Positions 4,300-17,029 of a stretch of DNA of 64,000 nt are shown one piece after another. Each line of letters opens with the position of its first letter. Position 1 is the first letter of the stretch. The DNA lies in assembly GCA_948465565.1 (NCBI GenBank), contig CAOJXR010000005.1, forward strand, positions 1 to 64,000, written 5' to 3'. Under the pieces are notes generated by a model. It did no database searches. It was not told the origin of the DNA and saw only the letters and a list, made by a program, of their open reading frames with translations. A program made the translations under genes and the position numbers. This DNA is from an uncultured Clostridium sp. (lineage in GTDB: Bacteria; Bacillota; Clostridia; TANB77; CAG-508).

Positions 4300-4463
4300 A
4301 TTCATATTTTACTATATTTAAATAATTACGCTTATCAACTGAGTCAGATAAAAACTTTCAAGAATAATTTACATTCTAATATATTTAAATAATTACCAAA
4401 AGATATACAATCAGCTGATTACAAAACTGCACTCTTTACATTCTACTATACTATTTTTATATA
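4300..4463 (-). CRISPR. relic CRISPR mini-array, three repeats
   Basis: One exact 30-nt repeat (4367-4396, minus-strand orientation as in array 2) lies between two decayed copies: 4300-4329 with about four mismatches, and 4434-4463 with a degenerate far end. The two spacers (4330-4366 and 4397-4433) are 37 nt each. No leader of matching orientation lies beside it; the neighbouring leader points the other way. It looks like the stranded remnant of an older array. Confidence 0.85.
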
Positions 4464-7152: not shown

Positions 7153-8145
7153 TTACCACCACATCTTAAAACCTTCATACTCATCATCGCCAAGCAAATG
7201 CTTAATCAACTTATACACTTCCAGACGAATTAAATACTCATAACTAACCTCTCTATCAAGTTTTTTATGTTTAATTTTAGTCTGCAATCTCAAATCAATC
7301 TCACGAGTTATCTGTTTTCTTGCACTATCCCTTATATAAGTAAAATTCAATCCTTCCTCAAAATCCTTCTCTGTAATCTGTTTCTTATTCAACATAGAAA
7401 AAATAAGTCTATCAGCAATAATAGGTTTAAAAATCTCAGCAATATCCAAACAAAGTGAAAATCTTCTCTCAGAAGGCTCATGTAAATAACTAATTGTAGG
7501 ATTAAGTTGAGTTTTATATATCTCACCCAAAACCCTAGTATAAATAATCGTATTAACATATGAAATCAAAGAATTTATAGCATTATCTGGCGGATTTTTA
7601 ACCCTTTTCTCAAAAGCAATATCCTGATTAATAATCACATTCCAAGAATCATAATAAACCTTCCTAATATTGCCTTCAATTCCCATAAGTTCTTGAACAT
7701 CATTGCATAATCCAATCTGCCTTCTTAAATATTCAATCTCCTTCATATACAAAGACACATCTTTGCCACGATTATTATAATAATTCAAATTTCTATAAAT
7801 ATTATATGACGCCGCATCAATAAAAGCTTTAGCAATCTTCAATCTCTTACTTGAGTCTGAATAGTTTTCAACTTGCTTAATCAAAAGCTTTCCAGAAACC
7901 AAAGCCTCTTTAGGATAATATGTACCAGTATAAAAACCATAATAGTTAAAAAAATGAACACTAATTCCAAACTGACACAAAAAATTTAACAAATTAGTAT
8001 TAAAATCAAATTCTGTCATAACATAAATATCATCAACTCTCTCAACAGGAATACTCTTTTTCGTACCATCCTTATACACAATTTCCAACGTATTATCTTT
8101 CCTCTGCAATCTACCACTATTATATAAATAATATGACTGTTTCAT
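7153..8145 (-). CDS. cas1: Cas1, CRISPR integrase
   Basis: A 330-residue Cas1, the metal-dependent integrase of spacer acquisition. The N-terminal beta domain covers about 90 residues. In the helical domain the three metal ligands are visible: Glu in MGIEGNIRKVYY (about residue 145), His in LHEPSERRF (about 222), and Asp in LDIAEIFKP (about 235). It is preceded by GAGGTG and sits between cas4 and cas2, the standard type I-B order. Confidence 0.97.
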   Translation of the reverse strand: MKQSYYLYNSGRLQRKDNTLEIVYKDGTKKSIPVERVDDIYVMTEFDFNTNLLNFLCQFGISVHFFNYYGFYTGTYYPKEALVSGKLLIKQVENYSDSSKRLKIAKAFIDAASYNIYRNLNYYNNRGKDVSLYMKEIEYLRRQIGLCNDVQELMGIEGNIRKVYYDSWNVIINQDIAFEKRVKNPPDNAINSLISYVNTIIYTRVLGEIYKTQLNPTISYLHEPSERRFSLCLDIAEIFKPIIADRLIFSMLNKKQITEKDFEEGLNFTYIRDSARKQITREIDLRLQTKIKHKKLDREVSYEYLIRLEVYKLIKHLLGDDEYEGFKMWW

Positions 8146-8156
8146 CTCTCAACACC

Positions 8157-8645
8157 TCACACATAACACAAATCAAAATAAGCACATTTCTTGCAAATTT
8201 TAGAGTTCTTAACCCCTATAGGCTTATCCATTTTAGCTATTTCTTCAATATTTTTTATAACATTCTCTAACACATCTCTATCTCCATCCTCCAGCATAAC
8301 AATCTTCTTCTCTCTCAAAAGCGGAAAATCAATCTCTGCACTTATATCCTTTACACCCTTCTGTTCCAAATAATACATATAATACTTAAGTTGCCATATC
8401 CCCGCTTCTTCAATAGCCTTCGTCTTCTTAATTTCATGCAACACAGCCTTATCTCCAATAAAATCAACATTTATCGTATCATCAATTAAAACTCCCTTAT
8501 CTTCTCTATCATAAGAAGTCTCATCAAGTATTTTACCAATACTCACAAGTTCACTATTCTGTTCCATACCAATCTGGTTCAAAAAATACCATAACTTTCT
8601 CTCACACACAAAATAATAATACACCATAATTCCAGTAATCTTCAT
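8157..8645 (-). CDS. cas4: Cas4, Fe-S exonuclease of spacer processing
   Basis: A 162-residue Cas4 of the RecB nuclease fold, which trims and selects prespacers by PAM. The N-terminal Cys in CERKLWYF and the C-terminal cluster KICKKCAYFDLC provide the four cysteines for the iron-sulfur cluster. DFIGDKAVLHEIKKTK matches the nuclease D and E-x-K motifs. It lies 11 bp upstream of cas1 and is probably co-translated with it. Confidence 0.95.
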   Translation of the reverse strand: MKITGIMVYYYFVCERKLWYFLNQIGMEQNSELVSIGKILDETSYDREDKGVLIDDTINVDFIGDKAVLHEIKKTKAIEEAGIWQLKYYMYYLEQKGVKDISAEIDFPLLREKKIVMLEDGDRDVLENVIKNIEEIAKMDKPIGVKNSKICKKCAYFDLCYV

Positions 8646-8708: not shown

Positions 8709-10928
8709 TCAAAACTCTCTCAACTCAATCTCGTATCCTTCATCTTTCTTTATTAGTAGTCCAACATTTTTATCATACTTACAATCCACAATATATTTTC
8801 CTTTAATCGCTTTAACAGCCTCAAATTTTTGTAACTGATCTCCAAGTCTCCTTATATTAGCTGCAGGAATAGATATAAACAAATTCTCAATCTTTCTTTT
8901 AAGCTCAGCCTTCTTCTCCACATTCTTCTCTTTTTTATATTCATCAATCAATTTACTATTATCATCAAATACAGACCTTGGAATAACATCAATATTATCA
9001 ATATTTCTAAACATTCGTTGAGCTTCTTTCTTACTAGAATCATAATCAACAATATTATCTAAAAATTTAAAGGACTCTTTAAATTTCTCATAAAATTTTG
9101 TTTTCTCAATCCTTTCCCTAGAATATAACTTCTTAACAAGCTCAATTTTAACACCTTCGCTCAAAAACTCATTATCAAAGCCTTTGTCCTCACCTTCTCC
9201 TTTAAGTAATTTCAAACTTATCTCATGTATATCCTTATCATATATTGCTGTAAGCCCACTCAAATTCTCTGTATATATCCTTATATTAGCATCATCCCCT
9301 GTATACTCTCTCTTCCTATAACATCTTCCCATTCTCTGAAACAAACTATCCAAAGTAGACATCTCAGTGTACAAAACATCAAAATCAATATCCAAAGAGG
9401 CCTCCACAATCTGAGTAGTAATCCAAATTCCAGATTCCCCTTCAGTCTCAGAAAACTCCTTAATCATTCTTTCCTTTTCCACTCTATCCTCTTGTAAAAA
9501 TCTCGAATGAAGAACATTTACATTATTAGCCCCTATATTTTCAAGCACTTTATACATTTCTAAAGCCTTATTTACAGTATTAACAATAACTAAAACTTTC
9601 TTCTCCTTCGCCATTTCGCACATTTCATCAATATCTTCTAAAATTCCAGTATCCAATAGCTTAATCTTATGTCTATCCATCTTCTTCGTATACTCACCGT
9701 ATTCATATTTAATCCCCATCTCCTCAAGCTTATCAGTATATATACTAGGCAAAGTCGCAGTCATAACCATAAATTTTCCATTAATCTTATAAATCATCTC
9801 AAGTCCCTTCAAAATAATCGCAACCATCTCTGGAGAATATGCCTGAATCTCATCAATAATCACCTTCGAATAACTCAATGTCGCATACATTTTCTCATAA
9901 CCCCTATACTTAAAAACAAAAGGAAAAATCTGGTCAACAGTACATGCAGTTATCTTATTATACAAATTCCTAGCTTCATCTATCTTATCCATTTCATTTT
10001 GAATATCAGACTTATTCTCCAAATAATCAAAAGCACTAGAATGCAACAAACCGACATGTTTATATCCAATCTCTTTACACTCTCTAATCCTATCAAAAAT
10101 CGCATTAATGCTAATTCTCAATGGCAATGTAAAAAATGTTTTATCAGCACCACTCCATATCAAACCAGCCTCAGTCTTTCCAACACCAGTAGAACCAATA
10201 ACAACCAAGTTCTCATCTTGTCTATCTTCGCAAAATGCCTGTAAATCATTTAAATCAGACTTTCTCCTTTCTCTCAAAAACTTCTTTACAAATATTTGTA
10301 CTTCCTCTTCAGTATCATCCTCAATATCAAGCTCAGCAGAACTAGAATGATCCAACCTATGTAATAGCCCCTTCATCATACAATAATCATTATACAATCT
10401 ATGACCTTCTGTAATTCTTGCCTGTCCCTCAACTAACCTCAAATAAAAAGTCTTAAGCTCACCTATTTCTATTCCCAATTCAAACTTTATCATTTCCAAA
10501 TTAGGCTTAATATCTTCCTCAATAACTTTCTTCAATATCTCTCTATCTACATTAGAAATATCCCTTTCATGATGATAATAAATAGCTTGATAAACCAAAG
10601 TTCTCTCATCCTCAGTCATTTCATATAACTTATTAGGAATAAAAGCAGGAGAAATCTGTTCATGTTTAAGTAATTCATTCGAAAACTTTGTCTCAATCAA
10701 TGGCTCCTTTAACTTTTTTCTTATCATATTTTGAAAACCCGAAAAAACTTTCCCAGCATCATGATAAAGACAAATTATCCTCATCAACTCCCAAAATCTA
10801 TTCTCTTCAATATCAACTACCTTAATAATCTTACTACCATATTTATTTTTCAAAATTTCTAAATTCTTTAGCAACTTATCCGAATGTTCCCTTATACTCT
10901 GCTTCGGATCTGATTTAGCATAATACAT
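8709..10928 (-). CDS. cas3: Cas3, HD nuclease-helicase
   Basis: A 739-residue Cas3 that shreds DNA after Cascade has opened it. The HD nuclease domain is N-terminal (REHSDKLLKN; LYHDAGKVFSGFQ near residue 80). The helicase follows: Walker A STGVGKTEAGL, DEAH-like box IIDEIQAYSPEM, VMTATLP, and QRMGRCYRKRE as motif VI. The start at 10928 was chosen because a GGAGGAG site precedes it; an upstream extension to 10991 would run into cas5. All catalytic motifs look intact, so interference should work. Confidence 0.95.
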   Translation of the reverse strand: MYYAKSDPKQSIREHSDKLLKNLEILKNKYGSKIIKVVDIEENRFWELMRIICLYHDAGKVFSGFQNMIRKKLKEPLIETKFSNELLKHEQISPAFIPNKLYEMTEDERTLVYQAIYYHHERDISNVDREILKKVIEEDIKPNLEMIKFELGIEIGELKTFYLRLVEGQARITEGHRLYNDYCMMKGLLHRLDHSSSAELDIEDDTEEEVQIFVKKFLRERRKSDLNDLQAFCEDRQDENLVVIGSTGVGKTEAGLIWSGADKTFFTLPLRISINAIFDRIRECKEIGYKHVGLLHSSAFDYLENKSDIQNEMDKIDEARNLYNKITACTVDQIFPFVFKYRGYEKMYATLSYSKVIIDEIQAYSPEMVAIILKGLEMIYKINGKFMVMTATLPSIYTDKLEEMGIKYEYGEYTKKMDRHKIKLLDTGILEDIDEMCEMAKEKKVLVIVNTVNKALEMYKVLENIGANNVNVLHSRFLQEDRVEKERMIKEFSETEGESGIWITTQIVEASLDIDFDVLYTEMSTLDSLFQRMGRCYRKREYTGDDANIRIYTENLSGLTAIYDKDIHEISLKLLKGEGEDKGFDNEFLSEGVKIELVKKLYSRERIEKTKFYEKFKESFKFLDNIVDYDSSKKEAQRMFRNIDNIDVIPRSVFDDNSKLIDEYKKEKNVEKKAELKRKIENLFISIPAANIRRLGDQLQKFEAVKAIKGKYIVDCKYDKNVGLLIKKDEGYEIELREF

Positions 10929-10987
10929 ATAATTCTCCTCCTCCAAAATCATTTTCCCTACATCTCTTAATATACAAGAAACCACAC

Positions 10988-11653
10988 TCATATTAAGTGT
11001 GGTAATTCTTGACTATAAAAATATATTTGGTCTCCATCCTCATCAATCAGTGCAAAATATACACCCATATTAGTACTCTTCTCTACATATTTAACATTAA
11101 CCTTATTCCAATACCTCAAATCATTCTTAATTTTATATGTAGTATTCAATCTATAACTTATTCCACTAACTCCTGCATCAATCCACTCAGGAATATATGC
11201 ACTATTTACAACATCCACTTCTTCCTCTTCACTAACATCACCAAGAATCTTAATACTGTCAACTCTAACCAAATCCTCATTTCTTCCCAAAGTAAACGTC
11301 TCAACTCCATTAACAATATTATTATAAATTTTTTCTATAATCTCATCCTCAGCTTGAACGTGAATAATTAAATGAACACCCAACAATTGATGCACATTTC
11401 TAGGCATAGAAGTAACCTTATCCTTACCTTTATACATTCTCAAATTTTGATAATTACTAAAAATACTCTCATAATCACCTTGAACAGACACATTCATAGG
11501 AAAATACTCACCAGACTCAGCCTGCAAAATTTTATGAAACATCCCAATAATAGTAGAATACGGTGGCAAAGGATATGTTTCTGCAACCTTAGTTGCAAAA
11601 GGCTTCTTATAACATGCAGTCTCTTGATACAACTTAAGTTTTAAAATCTTCAT
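10988..11653 (-). CDS. cas5: Cas5, Cascade subunit (type I-B)
   Basis: A 221-residue Cas5, which caps the crRNA 5' handle in Cascade. The N-terminal RAMP fold is recognisable from LKLYQETACYKKPF then ETYPLPPYSTIIGM, a typical Cas5b pattern. The start at 11653 (MKILKLKL) follows AAAGGATTGGGG. It lies between cas7 and cas3, 20 bp after cas7. Confidence 0.93.
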   Translation of the reverse strand: MKILKLKLYQETACYKKPFATKVAETYPLPPYSTIIGMFHKILQAESGEYFPMNVSVQGDYESIFSNYQNLRMYKGKDKVTSMPRNVHQLLGVHLIIHVQAEDEIIEKIYNNIVNGVETFTLGRNEDLVRVDSIKILGDVSEEEEVDVVNSAYIPEWIDAGVSGISYRLNTTYKIKNDLRYWNKVNVKYVEKSTNMGVYFALIDEDGDQIYFYSQELPHLI

Positions 11654-11672
11654 TAACCCCAATCCTTTCTAT

Positions 11673-12584
11673 TTAGGATTTATAATACTCAGCCACTTTC
11701 ACTTTTAAATCTTTAAAGAAATCCTCTATATTAGATACTTTACCATCAAATACTTTCTCTATCTCTTCCTCATTTTTAAAAGAATTTTTAAGAACACCAA
11801 CATTTGTATCATCAAAAATTGAATTATCACCAATAGTCAAAGTAGCTGTATCTTTCAACATATCAGTATCCAATGCAAACTCGCCATCTTTTCCATTAAG
11901 TTTAATTCTGCCCAAATAGAAAGGTGAATTTAAATCATACATTCCACCAATTACAAAAACTGGACTCAAATTTTCTTCTCTACCTCTAATATCTCTATTT
12001 AAAATCTTAACAACATCTAATAATTGATGAACTCTCTTAACTTTCTCATCATTTGAAATCTCTACACTACCATCAACACCAATCTTCTCTAAATCAATTG
12101 TAATCGTATATGTATAATAACTTAAATGTTGTTCAATATTAGCAAGGTTAGGAAATTCAGGAATTCTATCAGCCAATCCCTTATTGTTTAATAATTCAAT
12201 ATCACTCTTATATTCTTCTAATGAAATAGCATTACTCAATCTAACAGCAGCGCTTCTTATATTAGAACCTCCATCTTTACCATCGCCACTTCCTTTAACT
12301 GTCTTCATATATCCAAAAAGATCCATTTCTTCAGAATCTTTTATTGTTAAATCATCTCTAAACTGAACTGTTCCTTTAGACTTATCTACAACTTCCAAAT
12401 TCCAGCCAAACATCTTATTAGCAATTCTAACAATATCATATCTCAAAGCCTGTCTTGAAGCAAAAGTATAAACATTACCATCACCTCTTGTAAGCTTCTT
12501 TAATTCTGAAATATTTCCAATACCTTCTCCATAGTTCAAACTCTGAGCCTTAAAAATCATTGTCATTGACAAACCTTTTTTCAT
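11673..12584 (-). CDS. cas7: Cas7, Cascade backbone (Cst2/DevR-like)
   Basis: A 303-residue Cas7 that polymerises along the crRNA spacer. TRGDGNVYTFASRQALRYDI near residues 30-50 is the type I-B Cst2/DevR signature. A Gly-rich stretch (KGSGDGKDGGSN) near residue 100 may be part of the thumb loop. The start at 12584 follows GGAGGT by five bases; the upstream ATG is part of that ribosome site. Confidence 0.95.
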   Translation of the reverse strand: MKKGLSMTMIFKAQSLNYGEGIGNISELKKLTRGDGNVYTFASRQALRYDIVRIANKMFGWNLEVVDKSKGTVQFRDDLTIKDSEEMDLFGYMKTVKGSGDGKDGGSNIRSAAVRLSNAISLEEYKSDIELLNNKGLADRIPEFPNLANIEQHLSYYTYTITIDLEKIGVDGSVEISNDEKVKRVHQLLDVVKILNRDIRGREENLSPVFVIGGMYDLNSPFYLGRIKLNGKDGEFALDTDMLKDTATLTIGDNSIFDDTNVGVLKNSFKNEEEIEKVFDGKVSNIEDFFKDLKVKVAEYYKS

Positions 12585-12611
12585 ACTAACCTCCATAATT
12601 TAATTAATTTT

Positions 12612-14474
12612 TTATTTCTCTTCTTCATCTGTATCTTCATCATTCTTCTTTTTATCTTGATATCTATTTGAAATCAAACCAGACAAAAAGCTATGTCCTA
12701 CTGCTTCAAAATCTAATCCTTCTTCACTCATAGCATCTAAAAACGGAACAGGCACACCCTTTTTTAATTCCGCATGTATTCTAACTACAATATCCATAAA
12801 ATCTCCAACATTACCTGTCTTAATGCTATTTAACATCTTATATACATACCCATTTATTTTATTTTCTTTCTTTTGTTCTAACAAATCCATGTGCATCTCT
12901 ACACCCAAATTATACAAAGTATATAATTTAGAAGTATTTTTCTTAATCTGCTCTTTTTTATCCATCACATCATCCTCCTTTTTTAAATCATTCAAAATAC
13001 TTCTTGCCATTGAAACAAAAAACGAATCTGTAGCAATATCTTCAGCATTTGAAGTAGTCATCACCATTCTAAGTCTATCATTAATAACGTATTTCATATC
13101 CTTATTTTTCAAAATATAATCAACTACCTGCATCTTATATCTATAATCTCTCATTCTGGAAATAGATCTCTTAGAATACTGACTAAAAAATTCTGCAACA
13201 TGCTTTCTAATATTAAAATACTCAATTCTGCTATACGCTCCATATTCTGTATCAAACTCAACAACAAAAATATTCTGTAACTGCCACTTACTTATCTTTA
13301 CATCCTGTCCCACAATATCTAAGATCATCTGAGCAAATACATTCTTAGTCCTATTCTCATATCTAGAATTATTCTGAAAACTATTATTAATTTTAAGCAA
13401 ATCATCAACACAAGTATCATAATTAACAAAATTTAATACAGGCTTTTCCTTATACTCCCCACTATCTTTCACAATTTTTCTAATATTAGAAACACCAGCA
13501 GGAATACAAAACAAAATCAACTTACACACATCGCAAATTGGAAACTTAACATTTTGGTTCCAAAAGAAATTTCTAGCATTATCATTACTAATCGCAAGAG
13601 GAACAAAATTACTTTCAGAATAATTACTTGTCAATCCAAAATCATTCTCACACATGCAACAATGCTGTAATACGTTTTCATTCAAATAACTCTTGATATC
13701 ATCAATAGTTTTATTCTTATCAATATACGATTTCTTAATTTTCTCATAAACTTTCTCAATATCTTTAGTAATTCTCTTACTCTCTAATCTCTTCTTCAAT
13801 TCCTTATCAAGTTCTTCTAAATTAAACTCTCCATCAACAATATCATGTAAAAATCCAGTCTCAACAATATTACTAACATAGTCAATATACATAACCTCTT
13901 GTTGTTCCTCATAAGACAGAGCAGTCTTAACAACATTAAGGAATGACGGTTGGCCGTAATAAGTATTACTCAAAATACTTTTAAACAAATTTAATGTTAA
14001 TCTCCTATTTATCTTCTCATTACCAATTCCATCAAATAAAGCTTGTCTAATCTGTTCTATACCTTCTCTACTATCTTCTTTATCAAGCTTATCATAGGCT
14101 TCTTTCATACTGTCATAAATTTGCTCATCAATTTTCTTAATCTTGTCCAATTGTTTTTTAATTACATCTTTAATATATTTTTTATTTGCTTTTACTGCAT
14201 CCTTTACTGCCTTATCATCCGCCCTCTCTATATTCTCAAGCAAATAACTAAAATAATTTTCCGTTCTCTCTTTAACACTCTTAGCAACATCATATCTATC
14301 AAAAAAATAATTAAAATAGTATTCATCAAAATTCTTTAAATCATCTGTATCAAACTCAATATAATTATCTTTCTTCTCAATAACAGCACTTGCATTATTT
14401 TTATTCATTATTCTTAAAAAGCCTATAATACCTGCATTATAAAACCACTCACCAAGATATACCTTTACCTTCAA
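12612..14474 (-). CDS. cas8b: Cas8b1/Cst1, Cascade large subunit
   Basis: A 620-residue large subunit that recognises the PAM in type I-B. VYLGEWFYNAGIIGFLRIM at the N-terminus is the Cst1-type opening. A zinc-finger-like pair, CCMCEN near residue 275 and CDVCKL near 315, is kept. The C-terminus is acidic. The likely start is the TTG at 14474, seven bases after GGAGG; the GTG two codons earlier abuts the ribosome site. It follows cas6 by 18 bp. Confidence 0.93.
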   Translation of the reverse strand: MKVKVYLGEWFYNAGIIGFLRIMNKNNASAVIEKKDNYIEFDTDDLKNFDEYYFNYFFDRYDVAKSVKERTENYFSYLLENIERADDKAVKDAVKANKKYIKDVIKKQLDKIKKIDEQIYDSMKEAYDKLDKEDSREGIEQIRQALFDGIGNEKINRRLTLNLFKSILSNTYYGQPSFLNVVKTALSYEEQQEVMYIDYVSNIVETGFLHDIVDGEFNLEELDKELKKRLESKRITKDIEKVYEKIKKSYIDKNKTIDDIKSYLNENVLQHCCMCENDFGLTSNYSESNFVPLAISNDNARNFFWNQNVKFPICDVCKLILFCIPAGVSNIRKIVKDSGEYKEKPVLNFVNYDTCVDDLLKINNSFQNNSRYENRTKNVFAQMILDIVGQDVKISKWQLQNIFVVEFDTEYGAYSRIEYFNIRKHVAEFFSQYSKRSISRMRDYRYKMQVVDYILKNKDMKYVINDRLRMVMTTSNAEDIATDSFFVSMARSILNDLKKEDDVMDKKEQIKKNTSKLYTLYNLGVEMHMDLLEQKKENKINGYVYKMLNSIKTGNVGDFMDIVVRIHAELKKGVPVPFLDAMSEEGLDFEAVGHSFLSGLISNRYQDKKKNDEDTDEEEK

Positions 14475-14492
14475 ACTCACACCTCCAATCTA

Positions 14493-15206
14493 CTAAATTA
14501 TTTGAAACATACCAAAACCAGCAGAATGATTACTTCCCATTCCTGCTTTATACAAATATTCAAGTAACTCCCTATCACCACTAATTTTAAACGTTCCTGT
14601 AGAACACTCAAGCTGTTTTTCATAATATTTAACAATAATCTTCTTAGCACTTATTGGTGTTATACTAAACGTATCCACTATTGTCTCTGGAAAATCTGTT
14701 ATTTTCAACTGTTCTCTAATATTAACTCTAACAGTATCCTCAAACTCATCATCCGCATATGAAAAATAATAATCCTTATAATTTCTTCTGCTTCTAGCAC
14801 ACAAAGGAGATAAAAATTTTATAGTAACACTATCCTCCTCAATCTTCTTTTCTGGAACTATCTCAATATCTCGTAATACCCAAGAATTTCTATAAAGAGA
14901 AAACATCTTATTTCGTTGATGATTAAATGCATTATATAAAATAATCGCATCTTCATAATTTTGAACAGAAACTGTCAAATTAAAACACTTATCATTAACA
15001 ATAACTTTATCATCCTCAATCTTCATATTCTTAAAATATGTTGAAAATGTATATCCTTTAATAATAGTATCTCTTTCATTGTAAAACTTCTTATAAAATT
15101 CTGGATTATATTCAGACAAAGACAATTTGAAGAAACTCAAAATACTTTTTCTATATTGAATTGGTAACTCTGGATTCTCTAAATTAAAATACAACTTAAA
15201 TCTCAT
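14493..15206 (-). CDS. cas6: Cas6, crRNA-processing endoribonuclease
   Basis: A 237-residue Cas6 that cuts the precursor inside each repeat to leave the AUGUAAAU handle. The protein has two RAMP-like halves and the typical C-terminal glycine-rich loop AGMGSNHSAGFGMF. The ATG at 15206 follows GGAGGTG. It is the first gene of the cas operon and should also process the crRNA-like unit at 15835-15984. Confidence 0.95.
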   Translation of the reverse strand: MRFKLYFNLENPELPIQYRKSILSFFKLSLSEYNPEFYKKFYNERDTIIKGYTFSTYFKNMKIEDDKVIVNDKCFNLTVSVQNYEDAIILYNAFNHQRNKMFSLYRNSWVLRDIEIVPEKKIEEDSVTIKFLSPLCARSRRNYKDYYFSYADDEFEDTVRVNIREQLKITDFPETIVDTFSITPISAKKIIVKYYEKQLECSTGTFKISGDRELLEYLYKAGMGSNHSAGFGMFQII

Positions 15207-15368: not shown

Positions 15369-15497
15369 TCATTTCTTAGCTCTATTCCTTAATGTACTGG
15401 CTGCAACAGATTTTTGCTCATCAGGAACTTTTGGATCTCTCAGCTGTTTCGCTGCTTTTGTTGCTACTTCTTTAGAAGTCCTAATTTTATTTTTCAT
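15369..15497 (-). CDS. 42-residue conserved-type basic protein
   Basis: A small gene with a GAGAGGAG site 11 bases before its ATG. The product is basic and Ala/Lys-rich: RTSKEVATKAAKQLRDP in the first half, then SVAASTLRNRAKK. The VATKA..LRDP...KS.AAS.L pattern recurs in small unannotated proteins of many bacteria, as far as I recall, but I know no function. It lies behind a structured leader and immediately upstream of cas6 on the same strand, so it may be the first gene of the cas transcript. Confidence 0.7.
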   Translation of the reverse strand: MKNKIRTSKEVATKAAKQLRDPKVPDEQKSVAASTLRNRAKK

Positions 15498-15517
15498 AAT
15501 CCTAATATCTCCTCTCT

Positions 15518-15641
15518 AAGAGCCATTTCATATGATACAGCTATTTACAAAACTTAAATTTTAGTCTATAATATTAGTGTATAATATGCTACAAATATTT
15601 TATACACTAACAAGGGGCTGTATTTCTACAATATGGCTCTT
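15518..15641 (-). ncRNA. nested RNA structure in the leader of the 42-codon gene
   Basis: Three nested inverted repeats enclose each other: AAGAGCCAT/ATGGCTCTT (15518-15526 with 15633-15641), ATACAGC/GCTGTAT (15535-15541 with 15617-15623), and TTAGTGTATAA/TTATACACTAA (15574-15584 with 15600-15610). The closing stem ends two bases before the ribosome binding region, so the fold could control translation or transcription. No known riboswitch class was recognised. Confidence 0.6.
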
Positions 15642-15707
15642 TTGGTTTCTTTAAAACAACTAACTCTTAAAAGTTGCAATCTTAATTATTATTAAGCTCA
15701 TGTAAAT

Positions 15708-15734
15708 ATTATACTTATTTTTTATGTTTGTCAA
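15708..15734 (-). promoter_or_regulatory. minus-strand promoter toward the 42-codon gene and cas6
   Basis: TTGACA (15729-15734) and TATAAT (15708-15713), both perfect, are 15 bp apart, shorter than the usual 17. The long 5' leader then carries the nested structure. The 46-bp palindrome starts eight bases upstream of the -35 box. Confidence 0.65.
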
Positions 15735-15742
15735 TAGTCCGA

Positions 15743-15788
15743 TTATAGTTAATATAATATCCACTAGTGGATATTATATTAACTATAA
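15743..15788. promoter_or_regulatory. perfect 46-bp palindrome between divergent promoters
   Basis: Twenty-three bases are mirrored without a loop around CCACTAGTGG (15761-15770). It lies between the minus-strand promoter (15708-15734) and the plus-strand promoter (15802-15830). On both strands the centre reads CCA followed by CTAGTGGATATTATAT, which matches the first pseudo-spacer of the crRNA-like RNA. It may be a Cascade-crRNA target, a dimeric repressor site, or both. Confidence 0.85.
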
Positions 15789-15801
15789 CGTAGTATATTA
15801 A

Positions 15802-15830
15802 TTGACAAAACGCATAGTATAAAGTATAAT
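15802..15830 (+). promoter_or_regulatory. consensus promoter of the crRNA-like transcript
   Basis: TTGACA (15802-15807), 17 bp, TATAAT (15825-15830): a full consensus promoter. Transcription should start near 15837, inside the first degenerate repeat. Confidence 0.85.
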
Positions 15831-15834
15831 TTGT

Positions 15835-15984
15835 TCATTATATAAATTATATTAGAATGTAAATCTAGTTGGATATTATATGGTAAACTTTTATCTAAGT
15901 ATAGTAGAATGTAAATCGAATTGATAAAATTGAAATATTAGCCCATTATTTTGAGTAGTTATTTAAGTATAGCAAAATGTAAAT
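15835..15984 (+). ncRNA. crRNA-like RNA: three degenerate CRISPR repeats, two pseudo-spacers
   Basis: Pseudo-repeats end at 15864, 15916 and 15984, each with an intact AATGTAAAT end that yields the crRNA handle. The first keeps the last 16 bases exactly, the second has about seven mismatches, and the third (15955-15984) has five. Pseudo-spacer 1 is short (15865-15886, 22 nt); pseudo-spacer 2 is 38 nt (15917-15954). It has its own consensus promoter and no leader. This layout is that of CreA/CreR regulatory crRNA-like RNAs rather than of an ordinary array. Pseudo-spacer 1 matches the palindrome upstream. It runs without a gap into the tRNA-like gene. Confidence 0.75.
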
Positions 15985-16058
<74 letters not shown>

Positions 16059-16167: not shown

Positions 16168-16253
16168 TAGGAAATGGAGAATCCACAAACGTGGTTTGCC
16201 AGTTAATATGTAAAAAAACACATTGAACAGCCAAGTTACAGATGTGTTTTTTT
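16168..16253 (+). ncRNA. antisense RNA of a type I toxin-antitoxin pair
   Basis: A short transcript from the promoter at 16134 to the bidirectional terminator. It contains CCAC-AAAC-GTGG as an internal hairpin. It converges with the toxin mRNA and overlaps it at the 3' ends over about 45 bases, the layout of txpA-ratA and bsrG-SR4 type modules. Its 5' part (ATAGGAAATG, then GTGGTTTGCCA) also occurs in inverted orientation at the 5' end of the toxin mRNA. Confidence 0.75.
16212..16253. terminator. shared bidirectional terminator
   Basis: AAAAAAACACAT (16212-16223) pairs with ATGTGTTTTTTT (16242-16253) around an 18-base loop. U runs are present for both strands, so it ends both the antisense RNA and the toxin mRNA. 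Confidence 0.85.
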
Positions 16254-16258
16254 ATTGT

Positions 16259-16360
16259 CTATTTGCTTAAAATTATAACCAATATAATTAAGGCAAATAC
16301 TATAATAGTTTCGACAACTAAACCAAATAAAAGTAAGTATAATAAAACCGCTTCTATCAT
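16259..16360 (-). CDS. small hydrophobic toxin-like peptide (type I system)
   Basis: A 33-residue peptide with a strong GGAGG site seven bases before its ATG. After MIEA almost every residue is aliphatic (LLYLLLFGLVVE, then TIIVFALIILVIIL) and it ends SK: a single membrane helix like Fst, TxpA or holin-like type I toxins. Expression is probably limited by the antisense RNA from the other strand and by the hairpin CACAAC-ATAA-GTTGTG (16378-16393) just upstream of the ribosome site. The sequence family is not certain; the call rests on size, hydrophobicity and locus architecture. Confidence 0.7.
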   Translation of the reverse strand: MIEAVLLYLLLFGLVVETIIVFALIILVIILSK

Positions 16361-16443
16361 AGCACCACCTCCTCACTCACAACATAAGTTGTGGATTAAA
16401 AGTGGCAAACCACATCCGCTTATTCTCATTTCCTATATTATTC

Positions 16444-16941: not shown

Positions 16942-17029
16942 TATAGGACATTGGCAGGTGTGCCCCTTCCTGCATTTCTTTTGACCTTTTCAGGTGTGTG
17001 GCAGCACAGTCTCCACTTCAATTCCTATA
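16942..17029. ncRNA. structured, G+C-richer stretch, possible small RNA
   Basis: TATAGGACATTG at the left can pair with CAATTCCTATA at the right, closing about 65 bases. Inside are GCAGG/CCTGC and ACCT/AGGT stems and two copies of CAGGTGTG. It is clearly richer in G and C than its surroundings. The strand cannot be decided, and no known RNA family was recognised. Confidence 0.4.

Follow-up and report, generated by a model that had tools for sequence, protein, structure and literature searches.

A degenerate mini-CRISPR joined to a tRNA-Gly gene as a candidate RNA-guided regulator of a clostridial type I-B system

Background

Beside the type I-B cas operon of an uncultured gut clostridium, three decayed CRISPR repeats follow a consensus promoter, and the first guide that they hold resembles a palindrome just upstream of that same promoter. 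The question raised by this locus is whether the CRISPR system could use such a guide to control itself. So far, haloarchaea and a few model systems have been the main subjects of work on RNA-guided CRISPR self-control. The primary paper on CreR is reportedly Liu et al. 2023. CreR are cas-regulating crRNA-like RNAs of type I and type V-A systems (review PMC12737573), while CreA of the CreTA pairs is found in the type I-B systems of Haloarcula and Halobacterium (PMC8501985, PMC9458426) and CrePA designates a protein toxin repressed by Cas-CreA (PMC12737573). The window analyzed here, a stretch of 64,000 nucleotides, belongs to contig C5 of an AT-rich 1.74-Mb genome.

Results and discussion

Anatomy of the unit

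The unit sits between cas6 and the second of the canonical arrays, which carry the 30-nt CRISPR repeat GTAATTATTTAAATATATTAGAATGTAAAT of this genome at about 4.8-5.6 kb and 17.3-18.3 kb. Comparison with this repeat identified three degenerate copies (psiR1 to psiR3; Table 1), all of which end in AATGTAAAT, at 15864, 15916 and 15984, so that, as in CreR, the first guide stands between degenerate repeats in which the Cas6 handle is preserved. The predicted transcription start falls inside the 5' end of psiR1. The perfect palindrome, the promoter matching the consensus at 12/12 and the three degenerate repeats with their handles had all been placed correctly in a preliminary description made from the sequence.

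Table 1. Features of the mini-array unit and its surroundings (positions in the window)
Feature	Position	Strand	Remarks
cas1	7153..8145	-	
cas4	8157..8645	-	
cas3	8709..10991	-	
cas5b	10988..11662	-	
cas7 (Cst2/DevR)	11673..12596	-	
cas8b1/cst1	12612..14480	-	
cas6	14493..15206	-	
42-codon gene	15369..15497	-	phrog_5079 family, mobile; between left-facing promoter and cas6
Structured leader of 42-codon gene	15498..15698	-	z = -3.6; long-range stem near ribosome-binding site
Left-facing promoter	15706..15734	-	TTGACA-17-TAATAT (or TATAAT, 15-nt spacing); 10/12; toward 42-codon gene and cas6
Perfect palindrome, 46 bp	15743..15788		2 x 23 nt; CCA PAM and target on each strand; putative operator
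Guide 1 target, minus strand	15752..15770	-	PAM CCA 15770-15768 plus 16 nt
Guide 1 target, plus strand	15761..15779	+	PAM CCA 15761-15763 plus 16 nt
Consensus promoter of mini-array/tRNA transcript	15802..15830	+	TTGACA-17-TATAAT; 12/12
psiR1, degenerate repeat	15835..15864	+	intact handle ATGTAAAT; 22/30 to repeat, last 14 nt identical
Guide 1, regulatory candidate	15865..15886	+	22 nt, CTAGTTGGATATTATATGGTAA
psiR2	15887..15916	+	23/30 to repeat
Guide 2, antiviral spacer	15917..15954	+	38 nt; 31/38 to phage repressor genes
psiR3	15955..15984	+	25/30 to repeat; adjoins tRNA directly
tRNA-Gly, anticodon TCC	15985..16058	+	conserved in genus

The unit does not stop at 15984, where the preliminary description had ended it, because a tRNA-Gly(TCC) gene overlooked there begins at 15985, on the base after the last one of psiR3. 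Since promoter-like sites from 15830 to the tRNA scored at most 9/12, compared with 12/12 for the site at 15802-15830, the mini-array most likely lies on the tRNA transcript, so that the two would be co-transcribed from one promoter. Thirteen other members of the genus were examined, and most have the same tRNA-Gly variant, never with a CRISPR unit in front. The tRNA fusion was also considered as a recurrent feature and rejected: among 380 genomes of the family, the exact handle was joined to a tRNA-Gly in the window only, and the other handle/tRNA-Gly matches were AT-rich leaders with 2-3 mismatches. A literature search found no paper on natural crRNA-tRNA transcripts of comparable kind.

The tRNA-Gly(TCC) variant, which is genus-wide, is distinguished by an anticodon-stem mismatch and G37 (CATGCTTCCGACCTG), and standard tRNA-Gly(TCC) copies are present at 1-161 of the window beside this variant. 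Downstream of the tRNA, a short and very hydrophobic peptide resembling type I toxins (MIEAVLLYLLLFGLVVETIIVFALIILVIILSK) is encoded at 16236-16376 on the minus strand; similar DNA also adjoins the same tRNA-Gly in another genome (G001, locus L014). A skipping-rope RNA (Rfam RF02924) lies at 16946-17026 on the minus strand, between the unit and the CRISPR array.

The cas operon and the 42-codon gene

An intact type I-B gene set reads leftward from the unit in the order cas6, cas8b1, cas7, cas5, cas3, cas4 and cas1. The cognate Cas6 and the Cascade proteins that a CreR would need (Cas6, Cas8b, Cas7 and Cas5) are thus present, as is Cas3; no Cas6 was found in viral contigs. The left-facing promoter is on the same strand as cas6, with the 42-codon gene in between, and a possible separate cas6 promoter with a 10/12 match is located at 15283-15254. 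The 42-codon gene has a strong ribosome-binding site and encodes a basic, hydrophilic protein, for which no toxin family was matched in Pfam, NCBIfam or PADLOC. A homologous leader and 42-codon gene occur together in a further genome (G113, locus L101) with no CRISPR repeat within about 1.5 kb; this module therefore behaves independently. On the plus strand, a promoter (15544-15572) followed by a terminator-like hairpin (15612-15642) could yield a transcript antisense to the leader of the 42-codon gene.

Match of guide 1 to the palindrome

The palindrome carries CCA followed by CTAGTGGATATTATAT on both strands. Alignment of guide 1 (CTAGTTGGATATTATAT) with CCA plus CTAGTGGATATTATAT gives 16 identities, as previously described, and leaves a single base of the guide, nt 5 or nt 6, bulged. 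The first base after the handle aligns with the first base after the PAM, and pairing stops after guide nt 17, an extent compatible with Cascade binding to a partial match and not proceeding to interference. When the upstream region was randomized 3,000 times with a second-order Markov model and one bulge was permitted at any position, the longest match to guide 1 next to a CC PAM was 9, compared with the 16 observed; the match together with its CCA is far beyond chance. The PAM could be read from an array spacer, 18130(-), which matches two gut-virus contigs at 37/37 next to CCA and one viral contig at 36/37 next to CCT. CCA is the verified PAM of the window's type I-B system, confirmed by this spacer independently of the palindrome. 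The literature search found no data on bulge tolerance in type I Cascade.

Two other origins of these sequences were considered. Derivation of guide 1 from a phage was rejected, its single viral match having the PAM AAA and an identity of 22/35. An inverted duplication of the promoter region extending beyond the palindrome is marginal and is not claimed, as 27 of 2,000 shuffles were equally good and the likeness consists mostly of the shared promoter hexamers.

With regard to the promoters, a protospacer of the full 36 nt would extend to 15799 on the plus strand, 3 bp short of the -35 at 15802, and to 15732 on the minus strand, within the -35 (15734-15729) of the left-facing promoter. This minus-strand arrangement had been anticipated for a full-length guide; by the spacing of the repeats, however, the actual guide 1 has 22 nt, compared with the usual ~36 nt, and its R-loop would end 11-16 bp before either -35, so that blocking would depend on the protein footprint. 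A shorter guide usually weakens binding, as described for a type I-F1 system (PMC7296934). The two target sites have four base pairs in common, and the PAM of either one falls on protospacer positions 5-7 of its counterpart. That two Cascades bind at the same time, as the preliminary description had envisaged, is unlikely because each PAM lies inside the protospacer of the other site, where one R-loop would destroy it as duplex DNA.

Guide 2 matches phage genes

Both guides had initially been taken as pseudo-spacers with a regulatory function, and this holds as a candidate function for guide 1, which matches the palindrome, but not for guide 2. For the latter, phage contigs have matches of 31/38 in CI/S24-type repressor genes, next to a CCA or CCT PAM and with differences mostly at third codon positions, which marks it as an ordinary antiviral spacer. 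A role as a second regulator was rejected, since the genome offers no convincing CC-PAM seed target for guide 2 and phage repressor genes match instead.

Co-variation of guide and target in related loci

If guide 1 serves regulation, related loci could be expected to keep guide and target matched to each other, and co-variation of this kind had been proposed as a check. Searches of the family and the order gave 40 distinct regions upstream of cas6, window included, and in these we looked for a degenerate handle and, after it, a guide with a second copy of its seed preceded by CC at most 130 nt upstream. CreR-like units were found in 7 of the 40 I-B loci (the window, G165, G295, G276, G242, G130 and G450), and in each of these the first ~11 guide nucleotides recur after CCA, near a promoter. 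The same scan detected none in 4,000 Markov-shuffled regions, and none of 513 canonical spacers had such a target in its own cas6-upstream region. The PAM was CCA in all seven units, although the scan had fixed only CC. All seven guides differ from one another, each matching its own target at 9-10 of 10 core positions and the targets of the others at 2-7; guide and target thus co-vary between related loci, as is characteristic of CreR, and the proposed check came out positive, each guide fitting only its own target. Mismatches were often located at nt 6, 12 and 18. CreA pairs at nt 1-5 and 7-11, with nt 6 and 12 irrelevant (PMC8501985), and the mismatches seen here at nt 6 and 12 are in line with this rule. 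The window holds the sole unit of the seven with a bulge.

The seven units are arranged in several ways. In G165 (L065/L110), G276 (L076), G242 (L080) and G450 (L114), the unit lies 79-99 nt upstream of cas6 (overall stretch about 80-130 nt) with no intervening gene, in the order CCA plus 11-nt target, psiR1, guide and cas6; as the unit is inside the apparent cas6 leader, the cas mRNA itself may yield the repressor RNA. G295 shares the order of the window (target, TTGACA-17-TATAAT, psiR1, guide), with a short ORF separating the unit from cas6. In G130 (L083), where the unit lies ~700-60 nt upstream of cas6, mismatches are confined to positions 6, 7 and 24 of 24; a DUF3892 gene and then a terminator-like hairpin stand between unit and cas6, and this gene could possibly be a guarded one. 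At least six relatives thus carry independent versions of a self-targeting guide, for which repression is predicted. No palindrome comparable to that of the window was found in the other cas6-upstream regions examined, and no such unit was detected in G008, the only genus mate with a type I-B system.

Proposed mechanism and alternative explanations

Taken together, the anatomy of the unit, the PAM, the non-chance match, the co-variation and the intact cas genes suggest that the unit is a CreR-like mini-CRISPR whose RNA represses both the cas-facing promoter and its own promoter, a reading to which we assign a probability of roughly 0.7. Of the crRNA-like autoregulator that had been proposed, the guide, its PAM, the divergent promoters and the intact I-B operon are retained; its two simultaneous Cascades and its two regulatory guides are not. 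Through guide 1, the CRISPR complex would probably throttle its own production. Transcription from the promoter at 15802-15830 would produce one RNA comprising psiR1, guide 1, psiR2, guide 2, psiR3 and tRNA-Gly, which Cas6 would cleave within each degenerate repeat, 8 nt from its end. The expected products are a crRNA-like RNA 1 with a 22-nt guide, an antiviral crRNA 2 and a tRNA precursor whose remaining 8-nt leader would be left for RNase P. RNA 1 is predicted to read 5'-AUGUAAAU-CUAGUUGG..., with AUGUAAAU as the 5' end before both guides. Cascade loaded with RNA 1 would bind CCA plus CTAG(T)GGATATTATAT in the palindrome, presumably without destruction of the target because pairing ends after ~17 nt and has a bulge, and the bound complex would hinder RNA polymerase. 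In the minus orientation the left-facing promoter, which points toward the 42-codon gene and cas6, would be blocked, giving negative feedback on Cascade, and in the plus orientation the unit's own promoter, which is also that of the tRNA, would be blocked. RNA processing, Cascade binding, repression and the gene whose control matters are predictions from sequence at each of these steps. Points against the CreR-like reading are the bulge unique to the window, the 22-nt guide with an R-loop short of both -35s, the 42-codon gene before cas6, the possible separate promoter of cas6 and the fact that no such unit was found in G008.

The two orientations of Cascade would be mutually exclusive, and the palindrome would accordingly act as an either/or operator. 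A further, more tentative and rather doubtful proposal is that the locus forms a two-way RNA-guided switch, in which one guide, a palindromic operator and two exclusive Cascade orientations tie the CRISPR level to tRNA transcription. If this were true, one orientation would shut the cas-facing promoter and the other that of the guide and tRNA-Gly, so that the repressor would be balanced against the effector.

Three alternatives to cas autoregulation need to be weighed. By the logic of CrePA and CreTA, guide 1 could be a CreA-type guard that silences the 42-codon gene as a toxin, released when Cascade is lost, instead of tuning cas expression. The left-facing promoter does enter this gene first, with its strong ribosome-binding site and structured leader, and small unrelated genes also precede cas6 in G130 (the DUF3892 gene) and G295 (the short ORF). 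We nevertheless consider a guard unlikely, given that the unit of four relatives directly precedes cas6 with no gene between, that homologues of the 42-aa protein occur with no CRISPR repeats within ~1.5 kb and so need not be kept by CRISPR, and that the protein itself, basic and hydrophilic, lacks a match to any toxin family in the three databases; in addition, a rare-codon RNA resembling CreT was not noticed on a non-systematic look. It is comparably improbable that the unit represents a decayed regulator, that is, a former CreR disabled by the base inserted into guide 1 and by its short length and kept only for the tRNA promoter and the antiviral spacer. The bulge, unique among the seven units, the length of only 22 nt and the resemblance of guide 2 to a normal spacer are what such decay might leave, but the guide keeps its remaining 16 of 17 positions, neither arm of the palindrome is damaged, and the bulge sits where type I guides flip out a base.

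Perfect palindromes are typical operators, and this one could serve an ordinary dimeric repressor, the likeness of the guide being coincidental or due to local duplication. The perfection of the palindrome itself would agree with that; however, the guide match begins exactly at the PAM and handle boundaries and exceeds all shuffles, and the relatives show the guide-target relation without palindromes, which makes a protein operator very improbable.

Relation to known systems

CreR regulation is already known, and the window unit resembles it as a degenerate mini-CRISPR near a cas operon, with a short candidate seed match next to a PAM at the promoter that faces cas and with Cascade-dependent repression expected. 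Unlike CreR, it is oriented divergently to cas, has a tRNA gene at its end and holds a second, antiviral spacer, and its match has a 1-nt bulge and a perfect-palindrome target between two promoters. With CreA it shares at least two degenerate repeats, the kept 8-nt handle, predicted seed pairing at 1-5 and 7-11 and a target at the unit's own promoter, whereas no rare-codon RNA toxin of the CreTA kind was noticed on a non-systematic look. As in CrePA, the putatively targeted promoter is followed by a small protein gene, but the 42-aa protein carries no signature of a toxin and also occurs at other loci with no CRISPR repeats nearby. An ordinary type I-B mini-array would likewise contain a phage-derived spacer with the correct PAM, as guide 2 is; unlike in such an array, guide 1 matches a host promoter region and all three repeats are degenerate. 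As far as the literature searched goes, three features are new: the fusion to a tRNA, the presence of a putatively regulatory guide beside an antiviral one within a single degenerate array, and a palindrome as the target for two divergent promoters.

These loci extend candidate self-control to an uncultured gut Clostridia family, where at least 7 of 40 I-B loci have it in various layouts, with the unit located in the cas6 leader, ahead of a small gene, or pointing away from cas and fused to a tRNA. The co-varying guide/target pairs represent natural sets for studying partial-match binding. What the window contributes further is a guide probably transcribed naturally together with a tRNA, a mini-array that mixes a candidate regulatory guide with an antiviral one, and a putative palindromic operator usable in two orientations. 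With its natural bulge at guide position 5/6, it also allows the strictness of the 5+1 pairing rule to be tested directly.

A second mini-array is also present in the window, at 4300-4452 on the minus strand, with two spacers and a degenerate first repeat (TATATAAAAATAGTATAGTAGAATGTAAAG). Matches of its first guide next to a CC PAM in its own genome were no better than chance-level near-matches, and the same guide has a 19-nt exact match in one viral contig.
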